DNA of 17,425 nt from Candidatus Woesearchaeota archaeon (GTDB taxonomy: Archaea; Nanobdellota; Nanobdellia; Woesearchaeales; GW2011-AR4), in assembly GCA_013330825.1 (NCBI GenBank), contig DUHN01000067.1, positions 2,899 to 20,323 of the forward strand, read 5' to 3'. This document shows positions 1,949 to 17,218 of the stretch, piece by piece. The notes beneath the pieces were generated by a model. The model was not told where the DNA came from and did no database searches. It saw nothing but the letters and a program-made list of their open reading frames with translations. Within the stretch, counting starts at the first letter, position 1. Each line of letters opens with the position of its first letter. A program made the position numbers and the translations under genes.

Positions 1949-1971
1949 ATGTAATCCGGAGATTTCCATAT

Positions 1972-2130
1972 GGGAGAACGCCTTGCTGCGCTTCGGGCGG
2001 CGCCAGGCTCGCTTATCTTTATCGCAACGGATATGCGGTTCCCTCCCGTAAGGAACGTCCCCTTCCGCATTCGCTGCCGCAGTTGCCGATTCGCTCGCGA
2101 CAATGGCGCAGCCGCCCTTCGCGTTCTCCC
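1972..2130 (+). repeat. Structured intergenic element, copy A
   Basis: The outer arms GGGAGAACGC (1972-1981) and GCGTTCTCCC (2121-2130) pair perfectly. After an asymmetric 5' bulge, a second stem pairs GGGCGGC/GCCA (1995-2005) with TGGC/GCCGCCC (2104-2117). Inside lie the motifs GGCTCGCTT (2006-2014) and CGCTCGCGA (2092-2100), plus a hairpin ATGCGG/CCGCAT (2033-2070). The 21 bases 1971-1991 recur exactly at 13436-13456 (copy B). The right arm is followed by TTGTCTTGACG, close to TTATCTTAACG in copy B. It starts 23 nt after the deacetylase stop. No convincing gene lies in 1949-2246. It could be a 3'-UTR RNA structure or a mobile repeat. Confidence 0.7.
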
Positions 2131-2193
2131 TTGTCTTGACGATCTCCAACGATCATTCGGCTCGTTGCGAGTTGGCCGTTTTCCTTCATCATC

Positions 2194-2246: not shown

Positions 2247-3800
2247 ATGAAAAAAGGCTCGGAGAGCAAGCTGGTGATCGTGCTGAGCCTGATGTCCGGC
2301 ATGTTCCTCGCGGCGCTGGACCAGACCATCGTGCCTCCTGCGCTGCCGGCAATCGTGGCGCAGCTCGGCGGTCTGGACTACCTGAGCTGGGTGGTGGCTT
2401 CCTATCTCTTCGCCTCGACAGCCACCATCATCCTCTACGGCAAGCTCTCGGACATGTATGGGAGAAAGAGGTTCTATATTCTGGGCATTGCCATATTCCT
2501 GGCAGGATCATTCCTGTCCGGCATCTCGGGGAATATCTTTGAGCTCATCGTCTTCCGGGCATTGCAGGGCATCGGCGGCGGGGCGATCATGTCCAATTCC
2601 CTGGCCATCATCGGGGACCTGTTCCCGCCGAAAGAGAGGGGAAAATGGCAGGGCTTCTTCGGAGCGACGTTCGCCCTCTCGTCCGTCGCGGGGCCGCTGC
2701 TCGGCGGATTCATCACGGACGCGCTGAGCTGGCACTGGATATTCTTCATCAACCTGCCCATCGGCATAGTGTCCATCATCATCCTCACGAAGAACCTCCC
2801 GCACATCCCCGGAACCGGGCACGCGAAGATAGACTACAAGGGCTCTGCAACGCTGATCTCGGCCATCGTCATCCTGATGTTCGCGCTGGAAAGCGGCTCG
2901 CACGACACGCTCCTCACGCCGACCGCCACCGCGCTGTTCGCGTCATCAGCAGCGCTGTTCGTGCTGTTCGCATTCATTGAGAGGAAGGCGGAGACGCCCA
3001 TCCTGCCGCCGTTCATGTTCCGCAACCGGACGTTCCTCATCATCATCTCCCTGGTGCTCATCACCGGAATGGGCATGTTCGGCGCCATCACCTATCTCCC
3101 GCTGTTCCTGCAGGCGGTGCTCGGCGCATCAGCAACCAACTCCGGCCTTGTCCTGACGCCCATGGGGATGTCCATCGTGGCGTCCAGCATGGTGTCCGGA
3201 CGCCTGATGTCCCGCACGGGAAGGTACCGGTCGCTCACCATCGGCGGCATGGCGATGGCGCTCGGCGGCATGTTCACCCTCAGCTTCATCAGCGCCCAGA
3301 GCACGTACATCCATATCATCGGCGGCCTCGTCATGGTGGGCATAGGGATGGGAATAACATTCCCCATCTTCACTTTGGCCGTCCAGGGCGCGTTCGACAA
3401 GTCCATGCTTGGCGTGGCGACGTCCTCCATGCAGTTCTTCCGCTCCATCGGCGGCCTGTTCGGCGTCACGGCCTTCGGCACGGTGCTGCTGACGGTGCTC
3501 TCCTTCTCGCTGGCAGGGACAAACCTCTCCATCACTCCCGAAGACCTGTTGGAGGATCCGGGGCACGCGTCAATCCTTCCGGAGGAGGCAGCCACCGTCA
3601 AGGAGGCGCTCGCGAACAGCCTGCACATCATCTTCCTCATCTCGACGGTTCTCGCGGGGGTGGCTGTCGCCCTTTCGGTCATGCTCAAGGATGTCTCGCT
3701 CGAGAAGCCCCATGCGCAGAGCATGAAGGAAGCGGCCATCCTCCTCGGAGAGGAGGAAGGGTTCATGGTTGCTGAGGACGGGGAAAAAGGGAAGAAATAA
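2247..3800 (+). CDS. MFS drug/proton antiporter, DHA2 (EmrB/QacA) type
   Basis: 517 aa with about 14 hydrophobic spans, the DHA2 size and topology. The TM1 motif is LDQTIVPPALP (family: LDxTIVNVALP). Loop 2-3 motif A is GKLSDMYGRKR, followed by RALQGIGGG. The antiporter motif in TM5 is GPLLGGF, followed by WHWIFFINLPIG, a family hallmark. These proteins export hydrophobic drugs or other small molecules against protons at the cytoplasmic membrane; the substrate is not predictable. The C-terminal cytoplasmic tail is acidic and charged. The stop codon shares its last base with the end of the opposite-strand tRNA-Thr gene. Confidence 0.93.
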   Translation: MKKGSESKLVIVLSLMSGMFLAALDQTIVPPALPAIVAQLGGLDYLSWVVASYLFASTATIILYGKLSDMYGRKRFYILGIAIFLAGSFLSGISGNIFELIVFRALQGIGGGAIMSNSLAIIGDLFPPKERGKWQGFFGATFALSSVAGPLLGGFITDALSWHWIFFINLPIGIVSIIILTKNLPHIPGTGHAKIDYKGSATLISAIVILMFALESGSHDTLLTPTATALFASSAALFVLFAFIERKAETPILPPFMFRNRTFLIIISLVLITGMGMFGAITYLPLFLQAVLGASATNSGLVLTPMGMSIVASSMVSGRLMSRTGRYRSLTIGGMAMALGGMFTLSFISAQSTYIHIIGGLVMVGIGMGITFPIFTLAVQGAFDKSMLGVATSSMQFFRSIGGLFGVTAFGTVLLTVLSFSLAGTNLSITPEDLLEDPGHASILPEEAATVKEALANSLHIIFLISTVLAGVAVALSVMLKDVSLEKPHAQSMKEAAILLGEEEGFMVAEDGEKGKK

Positions 3801-3915
3801 GCCCTCGGGAGGAGTTGCACCCCCGACCTGCGGTTCTTTCGGCGCCGGCGCCGGACGTTCCGTGACGCCAGTCATGATATACGAAACCGCCGCTCCACTG
3901 CTAAGCTACGAGGGC
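3800..3915 (-). tRNA. tRNA-Thr(CGT) with canonical intron
   Basis: Cloverleaf on the minus strand: acceptor GCCCTCG/CGAGGGC, D stem GCTT/GAGC, anticodon stem GCGGT/ACCGC, T stem GGGGG/CCTCC (one G-T pair) with loop TGCAACT, discriminator T (3800). The anticodon CGT is at 3881-3883. A 44-nt intron lies after position 37; the mature tRNA is 72 nt. CCA is not encoded. The 5' end is 4 nt after the stop codon of the zinc-ribbon gene and no TATA box lies just upstream, so it is probably cut from that mRNA. U73 is known for some archaeal tRNA-Thr. Confidence 0.93.
3836..3879 (-). other. tRNA-Thr intron at 37/38 with BHB motif
   Basis: The central helix pairs exon TTCG (positions 32-35) with intron CGAA just before the 3' bulge. 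The bulges are TA|T and AG|A. The outer helix is the anticodon stem. The intron is 44 nt and GC-rich, with a GGCGCC-GGCGCC run. This is the standard position for archaeal tRNA introns. Confidence 0.88.
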
Positions 3916-4489: not shown

Positions 4490-4509
4490 CGAGGGACGCC
4501 CTGTTGTAT

Positions 4510-4662
4510 GGGCAGCACCGACTCGCTCTTTGCTGTCAAGATTTGCATCGACACTCCCCGCAGTCCACGCAGTGGATGCCGGAAGCTCGCTTCCGGGCAG
4601 GGGCGTCCCCCTGCCGATTTGTGGGCAGTTTCGGTGATAACGCTCGTAAGTTGGTGCTGCCC
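4510..4662 (+). repeat. Structured intergenic element, copy C
   Basis: The end stem GGGCAGCACC (4510-4519)/GGTGCTGCCC (4653-4662) matches the inner stem of copy A in position. Motifs GACTCGCTC (4520-4528) and CGCTCG (4641-4646) lie just inside the arms, as in A and B. Three perfect hairpins follow each other: TCCAC-GCA-GTGGA (4564-4576), CCGGAAG-CTCG-CTTCCGG (4579-4596) and GGCAGGGG-CGTC-CCCCTGCC (4596-4615). The right arm is followed by TTTCTTATCG, like the tails of A and B. No convincing gene lies in 4490-4780. Confidence 0.68.
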
Positions 4663-4694
4663 TTTCTTATCGTGCCTATAGATTTAAATAACAT

Positions 4695-6607: not shown

Positions 6608-8038
6608 ATGAATGATGATTTTGTTTTGGTTGGAAGTATATTGCTGCCAAAAAGTGTTGCAGAATCGATGTCCGGGCAGACGCTAAGATGCAGGGAGATG
6701 ATTCCCCTCTCCCTGTGGCAGCAGAAAGTCAACCAGCTCTTTTACAGGAGGGATGATTCCCCCCTGGATCATCTGGGCACGCTTGGCGGCGCGGATCCTT
6801 TGCTGCCCCAGGCCATGGCCAGGGAGTTTCTTCAGGACAACAATGGGGCAAAAACCGTGCATGAGATCGGACCGGGAAAATTCAATTTCGCCAGACATTT
6901 CGTGGATGAAGCCAAACCGACGCTTGATGAGTTGGCGTACCGGGGGCATGACTTCTCGGAAACATCTTACGCTTTCGTAAAACCGGAGCTGGAGCCCTAT
7001 GGCCAATCAATCCAGTTCAACAGGACATCCCTCTCTGAATTTCCAAGAAAGGTGACAGATGATCCTCTCCAAGCGATTCTTGTGGAAGTGCTTGACGATG
7101 TGGCGACCGAGTTCTTCGCGCGGCATGAAGGGAGGGAATATATGCTGCATGTCCGGCCAGAGATGAATGGGGGCCTGTTTTTTCCCAGCAAGAAAAAATA
7201 TGCAAGGATCAAGATTGATGGGGGGAATTTCTCCTTGGCGATTCGGAGGGCCGCGAGCTCTGAGGGCATGGAGAAAACCTACCATGCCCGGGAGATTATC
7301 GGGCTTATAAACTCGTTAAAATGGGATGAATTGGACAAGATTCATCCATCGTTCCTAAAATGGCTGAGATACACCCCGGAAAGCAAGGTGTTCAATCCTT
7401 TCAGTTTGGATCAGCTATATCTCACTCATTGGAAGGATGTGCCGGATGAATTCAGGACGTACGGGGGCAGCATAATCAATCATTTCAGGGACCAATTGAG
7501 CCATGCGGAGGAAGATCGCACCGTCCATTTCCCCGTCGGTGGCTTAGAGTTCTTGTGGTCATTGAGGGAGAGGAAGAATGCACGAGTGGACTTCTTTGAC
7601 TATGGGTATGCATCAGCGAAAAATGATGTGGAGCACATGGCAGTCTACAATGGGCAGATAACCGCCCCGGTGAATTTCGAGCTCCTGAAATATGCGGCAG
7701 AGTGGCTTGGTTTCAACGCGCGTTTGGAGACTAACAGGGAATTCATCAGGAGGACGCTGGGAGAAGACACTATTCCCATCGCATATGTGTTCAAAGCGTT
7801 CAACAACTCCAGCCTTACTCACGCGAATGTCAGAAAGCTGCTGTATGATTGTTTTCATAAAAAGATAGTGGAATTGTGCCCCAAAACAAAACCAACCATT
7901 GATAATTTTATGGCTTTCAGGGTAAGAAGAGATGCGTATGAAACAGTCATCGATGTTGCGAAGGAGAAGGGGTTTGTCAAGCCTGATTTCGAGATGTCAG
8001 AGGGAAGTTTTCATCTTGCGGCATACAAGCGCACATAG
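6608..8038 (+). CDS. Putative SAM-dependent methyltransferase, MidA/NDUFAF7 (DUF185)-like
   Basis: 476 aa. HEIGPGKFNFARHFVD has the shape of SAM motif I (ExGxGxxxxA). VEVLDDV follows where MidA proteins have NElfDAlP. The C-terminal half has FFDYGYASAKNDVEHMAVYNGQ, then ITAPVNFELLKYAAEWLGF and TNREFI, mirroring the DUF185 pattern DYG...H...G..D.TahVDF..L...a...G...tQ..FL. Characterised members are protein-arginine methyltransferases acting on a respiratory complex I subunit; whether that substrate exists here is unknown. It is diverged, with large insertions, so it may have a different target. The base composition is lower in GC than ABCE1. It ends 2 nt before the convergent DUF99 stop. Confidence 0.6.
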   Translation: MNDDFVLVGSILLPKSVAESMSGQTLRCREMIPLSLWQQKVNQLFYRRDDSPLDHLGTLGGADPLLPQAMAREFLQDNNGAKTVHEIGPGKFNFARHFVDEAKPTLDELAYRGHDFSETSYAFVKPELEPYGQSIQFNRTSLSEFPRKVTDDPLQAILVEVLDDVATEFFARHEGREYMLHVRPEMNGGLFFPSKKKYARIKIDGGNFSLAIRRAASSEGMEKTYHAREIIGLINSLKWDELDKIHPSFLKWLRYTPESKVFNPFSLDQLYLTHWKDVPDEFRTYGGSIINHFRDQLSHAEEDRTVHFPVGGLEFLWSLRERKNARVDFFDYGYASAKNDVEHMAVYNGQITAPVNFELLKYAAEWLGFNARLETNREFIRRTLGEDTIPIAYVFKAFNNSSLTHANVRKLLYDCFHKKIVELCPKTKPTIDNFMAFRVRRDAYETVIDVAKEKGFVKPDFEMSEGSFHLAAYKRT

Positions 8039-8614: not shown

Positions 8615-8770
8615 GGGCATTGAAAACTTCGCTTCGCTCAGCCCAGCGGCGGCAAAACGCCCGCTGTCCATGCGGAAGGTGCTGCGTGCCCGTAGGGCGC
8701 ATCCCCCGCAACGCACTTGCCGCCGAGATTGATGGCGTTTTGCGGAAGGTGCTGCTGGTTTTCAATGCCC
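8615..8770 (-). repeat. Structured intergenic element D
   Basis: The perfect 13-bp arms GGGCATTGAAAAC (8615-8627) and GTTTTCAATGCCC (8758-8770) enclose a second stem GCAAAACGCC (8652-8661)/GGCGTTTTGC (8734-8743). Between them are GCCC-GTA-GGGC and a 15-bp direct repeat TGCGGAAGGTGCTGC at 8671-8685 and 8741-8755. One arm touches the stop codon of the winged-helix gene (8770-8772), so the element sits in the intercistronic region before DUF99. The architecture resembles A-C, but the end sequence and the CTCGC motifs differ, so common origin is uncertain. Confidence 0.62.
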
Positions 8771-12941: not shown

Positions 12942-13421
12942 ATGATTGCCAGAAAAGCGACAGCGGAAGACGCGAAGGGCATCGCCAATGTCCTTAGGGC
13001 GAGCTACAATATCAGCGATGAGCAGGAAGGCCTTTCTGTTTTTGAGTCGGAGGCAGGGAAAGGCCACCACTACCTTGTCGCGGAAGAGGATGGGAAGATC
13101 GTCGGCATCGTGACGTGGGTGCCGCACGGGCTGCCGAAGCACATGCTGGCGGAGCTGGACCGCATCGCGGTGCTGCCGGAGTTCAAGGGAAAAGGCGTCG
13201 CTGAGAAGCTGAAGGACGCGCTGATCGAGGATTGCCGGAACTGGTTCAGGGAAAGGGGGTCCAGGCTGAGAAAGCTCTACCTCCTGACGCACGAGGACAA
13301 TGCCCGTGCGCGGAAATTCTACGAGAAGATGGGCTTCGCGCACGAGACCACGTTGAAAGACCATTATTACGCCGGGAAGAAGGAGTGCGTGTACAGCATG
13401 TTTTTCGGCGGAAAGGGCTAA
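12942..13421 (+). CDS. GNAT-family N-acetyltransferase
   Basis: 159 aa. IARKATAEDAKGIANVL is the usual N-terminal strand-helix. The acetyl-CoA loop is LDRIAVLPEFKGKGVAEKLKDALI (pattern xxGxGxA), and LYLLTHEDNARARKFYEKMGF is motif B (N..A..FYEK.GF). Target unknown; general members acetylate small amines or protein N-termini. Start: the ATG at 12942 matches the domain start; the TTG at 12921 adds only seven unlikely residues. It is convergent with the MBL gene, with structured element B between. Confidence 0.88.
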   Translation: MIARKATAEDAKGIANVLRASYNISDEQEGLSVFESEAGKGHHYLVAEEDGKIVGIVTWVPHGLPKHMLAELDRIAVLPEFKGKGVAEKLKDALIEDCRNWFRERGSRLRKLYLLTHEDNARARKFYEKMGFAHETTLKDHYYAGKKECVYSMFFGGKG

Positions 13422-13436
13422 AGGTCATTCAAGTCT

Positions 13437-13628
13437 GGGAGAACGCCTTGCTGCGCAGGGTGGCACGCGGAAACACGTTTCCGGTGCCCATCGCCTTGCT
13501 CCGGGCATTGGGCTCGCTTTGGCATTCGTAATTGAAAAGTCGACATCTCCGGAGGAACCATCCCTCTGTCTCACCGTTTTCCTAACCGCAAGACGCTCGC
13601 AACAAGACGCCACCCTTGGCGTTCTCCC
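13437..13628 (+). repeat. Structured intergenic element, copy B
   Basis: The outer arms GGGAGAACGCC (13437-13447) and GGCGTTCTCCC (13618-13628) pair over 11 bp. After a 5' bulge identical to that in copy A, AGGGTGGC (13457-13464) pairs with GCCACCCT (13609-13616). Next comes a hairpin CGGAAA-CACG-TTTCCG (13468-13483), extended by GCAC/GTGC. Motifs GGCTCGCTT (13511-13519) and CGCTCGCAACAA (13594-13605) match copies A and C. The tail TTATCTTAACG matches copy A at nearly every base. It starts 15 nt after the GNAT stop. Nothing else is seen in 13422-13670. Confidence 0.7.
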
Positions 13629-13670
13629 TTATCTTAACGGTCTTAAAAGGTCAAGGGAAGAGGCGGGGAG

Positions 13671-16715: not shown

Positions 16716-16807
16716 CGGGCCAGCGAGGATTCGAACCCCGGACCTACAGCTTAGAAGGCTCTAGCGTGCGGAAGCATGTCGCTCTATCCAAGCTGAGCTA
16801 CTGGCCC
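16716..16807 (-). tRNA. tRNA-Arg(TCT) with intron in the anticodon stem
   Basis: Minus-strand cloverleaf: acceptor GGGCCAG/CTGGCCC, discriminator G (16716), D stem GCTC/GAGC, T stem CGGGG/CCTCG with loop TTCGAAT. The anticodon stem closes only when 17 nt (16761-16777) are removed: ACAGC pairs with GCTGT around loop CTTCTAA, anticodon TCT at 16753-16755. The mature tRNA is 75 nt and lacks an encoded CCA. A TATA box (ATATTTAAAAAG, 16832-16843) lies about 30 bp upstream. Confidence 0.93.
16761..16777 (-). other. 17-nt tRNA-Arg intron at 28/29 with relaxed BHB
   Basis: Exon AGCG (positions 23-26) pairs with intron CGCT to give the 4-bp central helix. The bulges are AC|A and AG|A. The intron forms its own hairpin TGC-TTCC-GCA. 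The outer helix of a full BHB is missing, so this is the HBh' type. A cut one base later would give the same mature tRNA but no such helix. Confidence 0.85.
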
Positions 16808-16975: not shown

Positions 16976-17137
16976 TCAACCTTTGGGCTCCCAGCTATTG
17001 GCCCACATGGTGCAGTGCTTCTTGCCCTCCCAATAGTACCAGCAGTCCTTGCCGAAGCTTGCCCACATCACGCAGCCCTTGCAGCACTTCGGCGCGCCTT
17101 TCCACGGGTCCTGCTGTTCCTGGGCTTTTTGTGACAT
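16976..17137 (-). CDS. 53-aa Cys/Trp-rich protein
   Basis: Starts MSQKAQEQQDPWKGAPKCC and ends WANSWEPKG. It contains CCKGC, a lone Cys in GKDCWYYW, and HC in KKHCTMW: five Cys, one His and five Trp in 53 residues. The C-C-x2-C ... C ... H-C layout suggests a small metal-binding (zinc or Fe-S) module. There is no signal peptide or membrane span. The start ATG lies at the edge of a tandem 12-bp repeat with TATA-like content (TCATATACTCAT twice), so the transcript may be leaderless. Codon use is GC-rich like the neighbours, which supports a real gene. Family not recognised. Confidence 0.65.
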   Translation of the reverse strand: MSQKAQEQQDPWKGAPKCCKGCVMWASFGKDCWYYWEGKKHCTMWANSWEPKG

Positions 17138-17159
17138 GAGTATATGAATGAGTATATGA
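17136..17159. repeat. Tandem 12-bp direct repeat at the start of the 53-aa gene
   Basis: ATGAGTATATGA occurs twice in a row on the plus strand. On the minus strand it reads TCATATACTCAT twice and the last copy overlaps the ATG. It contains TATA-like sequence and may be the promoter. Confidence 0.6.
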
Positions 17160-17163
17160 AAGT

Positions 17164-17186
17164 CGCTCGCGAAATTGGTGCTGCCC
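17164..17186 (+). repeat. Half copy of the structured element (right end only)
   Basis: CGCTCGCGA, 4 nt, then GGTGCTGCCC: the same motif order and spacing as the right end of copy C (4641-4662), with TTGGTGCTGCCC identical over 12 bases. No matching left arm GGGCAGCACC on the plus strand is found in 16808-17163, so it is a lone end. Read on the minus strand, it lies 32 nt past the stop codon of the gene at 17219. Confidence 0.6.
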
Positions 17187-17218
17187 GTTATGTTGGCGTA
17201 TGAATGCCGTGTTATGTT

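Follow-up and report, generated by a model that had tools for sequence, protein, structure and literature searches.

The element at positions 1959..2146 (+) of the window, by which we mean the whole stretch of 17,425 nucleotides that was analyzed, is very probably a MITE, an old copy of a large family in the Woesearchaeota. Members of this family are non-coding and multicopy and carry terminal inverted repeats and target duplications, which is the reason for our confident assignment. The interior has a conserved fold, with nested helices, a side mini-hairpin and an apical loop that hardly varies, which is unusual for a MITE. Judged from the similarity of ends and duplications, mobilization in trans by IS5-type transposases acting via the ends of the element is the best supported account of how it moved.

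Element A and other copies in the window

The initial annotation had delimited this element, here called A, at 1972-2130, which is too short: the right terminal inverted repeat (GAGATCGTCAAGACAAGG, 2129-2146, equivalent to C60:5027-5044, with three mismatches to the pattern) reaches 2146, and the left one, which reads GAGAT... in the sequence, starts at about 1959, the left edge being approximate. The perfect 10-bp outer arms described there, GGGAGAACGC at 1972..1981 and GCGTTCTCCC at 2121..2130, are the inner parts of the two terminal repeats, and the 21 bases from 1971 to 1991 were found again exactly in the second element, B. The other features described, namely a second stem, an internal hairpin and an asymmetric bulge on the 5' side, were confirmed in A as well. 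By the family pattern, the bulge (CTTGCTGCGCTTC, 1982..1994) is the site of the side mini-hairpin, and it is followed by the 5' arm of helix P2 (GGGCGGCGCC, 1995..2004), the 3' arm of which (GGCGCAGCCGCCC, 2105..2117) has a bulge of 3 nt. The two CTCGC motifs noted inside the arms provide the 5' side (GGCTCGCTT, 2006..2014) and the 3' side (CGCTCGCGA, 2092..2100) of helix P3, and between them lies the apical hairpin P4 with the conserved loop region (CCCGTAAGGAACGTCCCC, 2035..2068), all on the plus strand. Stretches of 28-42 nt from the apical region are 87-97% alike in the genomes G004, G011, G008 and G028, which represent three other genera.

A covariance model built from 48 chosen copies (R2), of which A is one, matches A at 1989-2120 with 68.7 bits. 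No target duplication is visible around A. Its folding energy is unremarkable (z -1.14, with 32 of 200 shuffled sequences equally good) and was dropped as evidence for the structure; that of B is better (z -2.55, with one of 200 shuffles as good).

The window holds at least four copies, namely A, B and the elements at 4504-4668 and 8615-8770. B, which represents a second sub-type, extends over 13428..13644 (+) including its terminal repeats, of which the left one is incomplete and the right one is AAGACCGTTAAGATAAGG (13627-13644); its arms start at 13437 and end at 13628, and the covariance-model match covers 13497-13621 with 33.3 bits. B is flanked by a probable target duplication, TAAAGGTCA on the left (13419..13427, +), which overlaps the stop codon of an acetyltransferase gene, and AAAAGGTCA on the right (13645..13653, +), with 8 of 9 positions alike as judged by eye. 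The third copy (4504..4668, +) scored 92.6 bits with R1, a covariance model made from nine copies of the same genome including A, and 44.3 bits with R2; its P2 is formed by GGGCAGCACC (4510-4519) and GGTGCTGCCC (4653-4662), and an outer terminal repeat is not clearly present in this copy. The fourth copy (8615..8770, +, ends placed by eye) was matched by R2 at 8635-8766 with 44.9 bits, and has the terminal repeats GGGCATTGAAAAC at 8615-8627 and 8758-8770, a fully paired variant of P3 (GCAAAACGC/GCGTTTTGC) and flanks that are alike at 7 of 9 positions (TGCTCCCTG/TATTCCCTG). A weak R2 match at 17074..17192 (+; 14.2 bits, E 0.009) is a possible remnant containing the right half of the core, CGCTCGCGAAATTGGTGCTGCCC.

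Among the other features of the window are two tRNA genes predicted by Rfam on the minus strand, at 3800-3915 and 16716-16807. The former is long (116 nt) and perhaps has an intron; ARAGORN reported the latter only, with an anticodon that is not clear. An open frame of 476 aa at 6608-8038 (+), with no Pfam match at E<=0.001, is located after an ABC-ATPase gene that by our reading resembles ABCE1.

Distribution, target duplications and candidate partner insertion sequences

The genome from which the window is taken (G000) comprises 1.16 Mb in 83 contigs and is 87% complete. A blastn search of this genome with A yielded 15 matches at E<=0.01, corresponding to A and 12 other places, some of which are just end pieces. 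The covariance-model search proposed in the initial annotation found further copies, with 52 R1 matches at E<=0.5 in this genome, and a chance origin of the likeness between A and B is excluded by this copy number. R1 also gave matches in 13 of 38 related genomes at E<=0.5, while R2, for which the counts per genome rest on the best 12 candidates, gave matches in 64 of 279 genomes in a sample of the phylum at E<=0.001, with E-values that are rough. All 64 belong to the same order as the window's genome. Genomes G010 and G012 were among those with matches to R2 and none to R1; the relatives G001, G014, G016, G019 and G032 had zero matches to either model. A scan of named genomes for the pattern of the bulge and the start of P2 identified 22 loci, 16 of them in records from Woesearchaeota, three from Nanoarchaeota and one each in bins assigned to Thaumarchaeota, Bacteroidetes and Propionibacteriaceae. 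R1 matched 8 of the 17 loci tested, including the Thaumarchaeota contig, and did not match the Bacteroidetes and Propionibacteriaceae loci. The core pattern gave zero matches in viral contigs. In the titles and abstract openings of open-licence literature on MITEs in DPANN, Woesearchaeota or archaea, the matches listed contained no description of the present family.

Several loci have a composite structure. By our reading of L111/L112 in G008, one core is nested inside P2/P3 of another, which gives two stacked P2-like helices. At three loci in the window's genome (L015, L019, L091), a second repeat, TTTCTTTTGGTCAAGCC...GGAGGC...GCCTCC, adjoins or is fused with pieces of the family, and short end pieces that lack a core, GCGAAGGGCGGCTGCGC or similar, were seen at L010, L015 and L016. 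Several contigs of G020 carry another kind of MITE (L210-L220) with the end GGCTTCATCCAAAAA and the core TTTTTAGGGTTGTGCC...CCCTAAAAAAGGCACAACC, in which the order of complementary segments, a b a' b', would correspond to a pseudoknot; 9-bp flanking repeats surround about half of these copies.

For the analysis of ends and flanks, 129 copies were laid out, 45 of which are from G000, 77 from 12 relatives and seven from named records. The source was 103 plus 35 matches, of which eight were left out (two that duplicated others by overlap, two truncated at contig ends, two that form a chimera with another repeat, L190 as a presumed duplicate of L151, and one of 22 nt), and one of the remaining 130 was dropped at a contig end. 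B is outside this set because R1 does not list it. A target-site duplication (TSD) was called if a direct repeat of 8-10 bp was located immediately outside terminal inverted repeats that match at 10 or more of 14 positions. Such duplications were identified in 41 of the 129 copies, 35 of 9 bp (17 exact and 18 with one mismatch), three of 8 bp and three of 10 bp; examples are GACTAATTC (G007:C128), CTATCCATA (G007:C141) and TCCCGTCTG (C80 in the window's genome). When the right flanks outside the terminal repeats were swapped between copies, 9 of 640 combinations qualified, as compared to 40 of the 128 real copies with full flanks, and at this rate about two of the 41 may be due to chance. No duplication was called for the other 88 copies; in 11 of these, the two flanks share an exact direct repeat of 8 bp (31 of 880 in the control). 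In the window's genome, a duplication was called for just 8 of 45 copies and the other 37 have none, and most of the copies there are therefore probably old.

The 41 copies with duplications are 153-238 bp long, and a few other copies of the family are longer. Terminal inverted repeats that match at 12 or more of 15 positions were found in 95 of the 129 copies, and at 14 or more in 69, whereas controls in which the right flank was taken from a copy in a different genome gave 43 and 7 of 384, respectively; 34 copies have no pair at the lower threshold. At that threshold, the terminal repeats form 33 clusters, some singletons of which reflect chance or misplaced 15-mers. The initial annotation had also expected many intergenic copies, and only 6 of 115 copies lie inside long open frames, as compared to 112 of 242 random windows from the same loci. 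A role as 3' terminator was rejected, with 11 of 109 copies located between two converging frames by a rough count.

Insertion sequences of about 900 bp and of IS5 type, with ends like those of the MITEs, were found in the same order as the window's genome. One of these, at locus L178 in G020, has the terminal inverted repeat GGCTCAGTAGAAAATC, which encloses the gene for a DDE protein of 281 aa that matches PF01609 above the cut-off (60.8 bits) and has the IS5 model NF033579 as its best NCBIfam match, just below the cut-off (135 bits vs. 140). No TSD was seen around it. Homologs of this protein were identified at E<=1e-10 in 21 of 145 genomes of the order. At 16 homolog loci, terminal repeats were found in 12, most of them of kinds that also occur in the MITEs (GGCTCWGTAGAAAATC, GGCTCTGTCCTGAATC, GCGTTCAAAATC, GCTCTGGTGAAAATC), and none in the other four; 9-bp duplications were present at three, of which one, L239, has an end not seen in MITEs. 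IS903, an IS5-family element, duplicates 9 bp of its target and has an end of the GGCTTTGTTGAA type. R2 identified no core inside the insertion sequences at any of these 16 loci or at L178, and the sole match in their vicinity, in L230, is more than 1 kb outside the insertion sequence.

Matches to PF01609 were not found in the window's own genome or in G004, G006, G007, G011, G028 and G038, and homologs to the G020 protein were not found in G000, G004, G006, G007, G011, G017, G028 and G038. Among the carriers, a full match to this protein was seen in G020 and weak or partial matches in G003, G008, G009 and G013. In the carriers without a match, the partner may be absent or may have been lost from incomplete assemblies. 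Fragments of IS5-type transposase genes at the first bases of contigs C28 and C58 in G003 suggest that assemblies break at the autonomous insertion sequences. In G000, the A-type end GAGACC..TAAGG occurs at 13 sites with at most two mismatches; an autonomous element with such ends was not found, and searches with PF01609, the G020 transposase and Y1 transposases identified no autonomous partner in this genome. An isolated left end in G004 (L170) was considered as an insertion sequence and rejected, as no right end was found and no transposase-like frame was seen. In the mechanism that we propose, IS5-type (DDE) transposases would have moved the MITEs in trans by recognizing the terminal repeats as double-stranded DNA.

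Covariation of the core, exchange of the ends and choice of strand

Covariation was examined in a selected set of 48 copies, mostly with inner lengths near 90-105, which were aligned with MAFFT without structural information. In the three nested helices that were counted, P2, P3 and P4, 23 of 25 pairs change on both sides. The compensatory changes that the initial annotation had asked about are abundant: 276 cells are changed on both sides, as compared to 92.5 +/- 7.7 in shuffled data and to no more than 57 when the arms were slid by 1-3 columns. Across the helices, 82.6% of the cells pair (59.9% in shuffles), with 99.4% in P2, 70.6% in P3 and 72.8% in P4, while the number of further pair types, 54, was not above that in the shuffles (54.6). 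RNAalifold recovered P2 and P3 unaided from the 48-copy alignment and did not recover P4. The two arms of P2 score well against each other in 110 of the 129 copies, as compared to 16 of 129 when one arm was taken from a random copy and 49 of 125 when it was taken from a copy in the same genome. The sequence of P2 varies, from GGTTAGCATC to GCATAGTGCC and GGGCAGCACC, while the surrounding bases stay alike. The most conserved stretch is the apical loop, CCCGTA.GG..C..CCCC, which is near-invariant.

The ends and the core follow different patterns. Copies that each have a terminal 15-mer pair matching at 12 or more of 15 positions form 505 pairs within the same genome, and in 61 of these pairs the cores of the two copies are at least 75% identical. 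In 21 of the 61 pairs with like cores, the end 15-mers match at no more than 9 of 15 positions; 17 of the 21 have credible terminal repeats on both sides, and the other four involve L112/L131, where the 15-mers are not real terminal repeats. The reverse case, like repeats with unlike cores, was seen in 0 of 22 pairs. Core and ends are therefore exchanged, either of the two being a candidate for the part that moves. The description of the ends as conserved and the inside as variable in the initial annotation applies to A and B, which share one type of terminal repeat; in the family as a whole it is the ends that vary widely and the core that is kept.

Several features differ between the two strands, and since copies are related, the counts given here overstate the number of independent events. 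On the strand as read here, P3 contains a tandem T.C/C.T mismatch in 40-42 of the 48 copies and is of Watson-Crick type in 6-7 rows. On the complement, this mismatch becomes a tandem G.A (5'-GA-3' twice, between a pyrimidine and a purine), which is a stable motif in DNA and RNA. Side hairpins were counted in 104 copies with a strict P2 of at least 8 bp. A hairpin of at least 3 bp is present in 83 of these, as compared to 193 of 387 outside windows, and is thus not rare as such. The loops are distinctive: a G..A loop is found on the minus strand in 43 of the 83 hairpins and on the plus strand in none, while the corresponding numbers for the 193 control hairpins are 6 and 17. GAA on the complementary strand is the commonest loop (26 of 83), and the canonical side hairpin, CTCGCTTCGCTCG, reads on the complement as CGAGCGAAGCGAG, which contains GCGAAGC. 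As a DNA oligonucleotide, d(GCGAAGC) forms an extraordinarily stable mini-hairpin (PMC6582339, citing Hirao 1994), whereas in the element the hairpin is a prediction.

With DNA parameters, the minus strand is the more stable in 94 of 127 copies (68 of 121 in flank controls), and with RNA parameters in 72 of 127 (66 of 123 in controls), a weak preference that reverses in G004 and G007; in G007, the DNA parameters give no preference either (5 of 11). The apical GTA/GTAA loop belongs to a type that is stable on the plus strand and favors that strand. The mismatches in P2, seven G.T and 12 A.C in 912 cells, carry no significant strand signal, and in the 48-copy alignment G.T occurs at the outermost pair only; in P4, there are 25 G.T and 15 A.C on the plus strand. 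A larger G.T excess in the stems was set aside as evidence for the strand, as it originates from the conserved motif that adjoins P2. A structure in single-stranded DNA is favored by the several signs that it is the complementary strand that folds, as DNA.

Possible roles of the core and comparison with known systems

The initial annotation had called the element a member of no known class and had offered a short non-autonomous mobile element and a selected RNA or single-stranded DNA structure as alternatives. The family is now placed among the MITEs. Its mobile nature is borne out by the terminal inverted repeats, the 9-bp target duplications and the insertion sequences with similar ends, and of the second alternative the compensatory changes and the many intergenic copies stand, with selection itself as a candidate reading. 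Our tentative preference is that the core works as single-stranded DNA at some propagation step. The core, consisting of the side mini-hairpin, P2, P3, P4 and the apical loop, would act when the complement of the strand read here is single-stranded, and the folded strand would probably help the copying of the element or the synapsis of its ends. Such a role could be the reason that the core has been kept while terminal repeats were swapped between types of insertion sequences. It is also conceivable, if doubtful, that the core is a passenger, a folded module of single-stranded DNA (or RNA) that is under selection for a function and has passed from the terminal repeats of one IS5-type insertion sequence to those of many others; one unit would then exploit a whole transposase lineage across the Woesearchaeota, and the apical loop would be the recognition site for a host or transposition protein.

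The helices could have arisen without selection if the arms of a quasi-palindrome are repaired against each other by template switching during replication and so change in concert. In the 48-copy alignment, one-sided changes are absent from the nine inner pairs of P2 while double changes are abundant, as expected from this process, which is documented to create and mend stems (PMC8794818) and would also explain that pairs of terminal repeats stay matched after exchange. However, such correction would be expected to remove asymmetric features and would not keep a loop constant, while different genera have retained both the asymmetric side hairpin and the tandem mismatch in P3, along with an apical loop that is nearly invariant. 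We consider this origin less likely than not, although it is a serious rival. Somewhat less probable still is that the core is selected as RNA, such that MITE transcripts fold and the fold, or a protein-bound apical loop, is of advantage to the element or lessens damage to transcripts of the host. The covariation of the helices would fit, many copies have an apical CCC-GTAA/GTGA-GGG that might form a GNRA hairpin on the strand read here, and stem-loop-forming transcripts of prokaryotic MITEs have been described (PMC10969869), but the signal for the strand is stronger with DNA than with RNA parameters, and G.T is no commoner than A.C in P2. Nor is there a clear preference in the orientation relative to neighboring frames (by a rough count, 45 left neighbors point toward the element and 66 away, and 43 right neighbors toward and 70 away). 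Rfam did not provide a match: no family matched the copies in the window, where the two tRNAs alone scored, none matched L001 and five further loci, and at E<=10 nothing around A came near the gathering score.

A host regulatory RNA is unlikely. The conserved fold and the intergenic location would suit a stand-alone structured RNA gene or a riboswitch-like element that serves the host wherever it is located, yet such a gene is very hard to reconcile with target-site duplications, terminal repeats of many kinds and 52 matches in one genome against none in G001, G014, G016, G019 and G032. We find it equally improbable that the element resembles REPINs in being moved as single-stranded DNA by a Y1 transposase (IS200/IS605 or RAYT). 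It shares with REPINs a short, extragenic, hairpin-forming unit with compensatory changes (PMC3116915), and Y1 transposases are present in 9 of 13 carrier genomes, but the 9-bp TSDs and the terminal inverted repeats are like those of DDE insertion sequences, and a Y1 match is absent in the window's genome, G003, G007 and G017.

Selection of the fold would imply that the shape of the element is read by some component of the host or of transposition. Without selection, the family would document template-switch correction on a large natural scale, and would caution against taking covariation in mobile palindromes as a sure sign of RNA. The family can be used for masking and annotating woesearchaeal genomes.

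In integron attC sites, one strand folds and keeps certain unpaired bases, while its helices are free to vary. We consider them a comparison for the manner of working only, since the target duplications and terminal inverted repeats of the present family indicate a DDE transposon. It is usually by their ends that MITEs are defined, the interior being of no consequence. In the MITEs described here, the interior consists of several helices with strong covariation and a near-invariant loop, and it is shared across different IS-type ends and many uncultured archaeal genera.

IS5-family MITEs are known from archaea such as Methanosarcina and M. burtonii (PMC3852290). According to that description, they are short, non-coding, multicopy and mostly intergenic, have the terminal inverted repeats and duplications of an autonomous IS5-type element and show little similarity to the insertion sequence beyond the ends. 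The present family resembles them in these respects and differs in that its covarying core is common to many kinds of terminal repeats and many genera and is missing from the 17 insertion-sequence loci tested, and its target duplications are 9 bp, as compared to 0 or 3 for the IS5 entries tabulated in PMC3852290. The nearest hairpin-forming comparison is with REPINs, which PMC3116915 describes as dispersed, extragenic, hairpin-forming mobile units with compensatory changes, for which hairpins in single-stranded DNA or mRNA have been proposed. In contrast to this Y1/RAYT system, the present family has DDE-type ends, 9-bp duplications, a unit of about 150-240 bp and nested helices.
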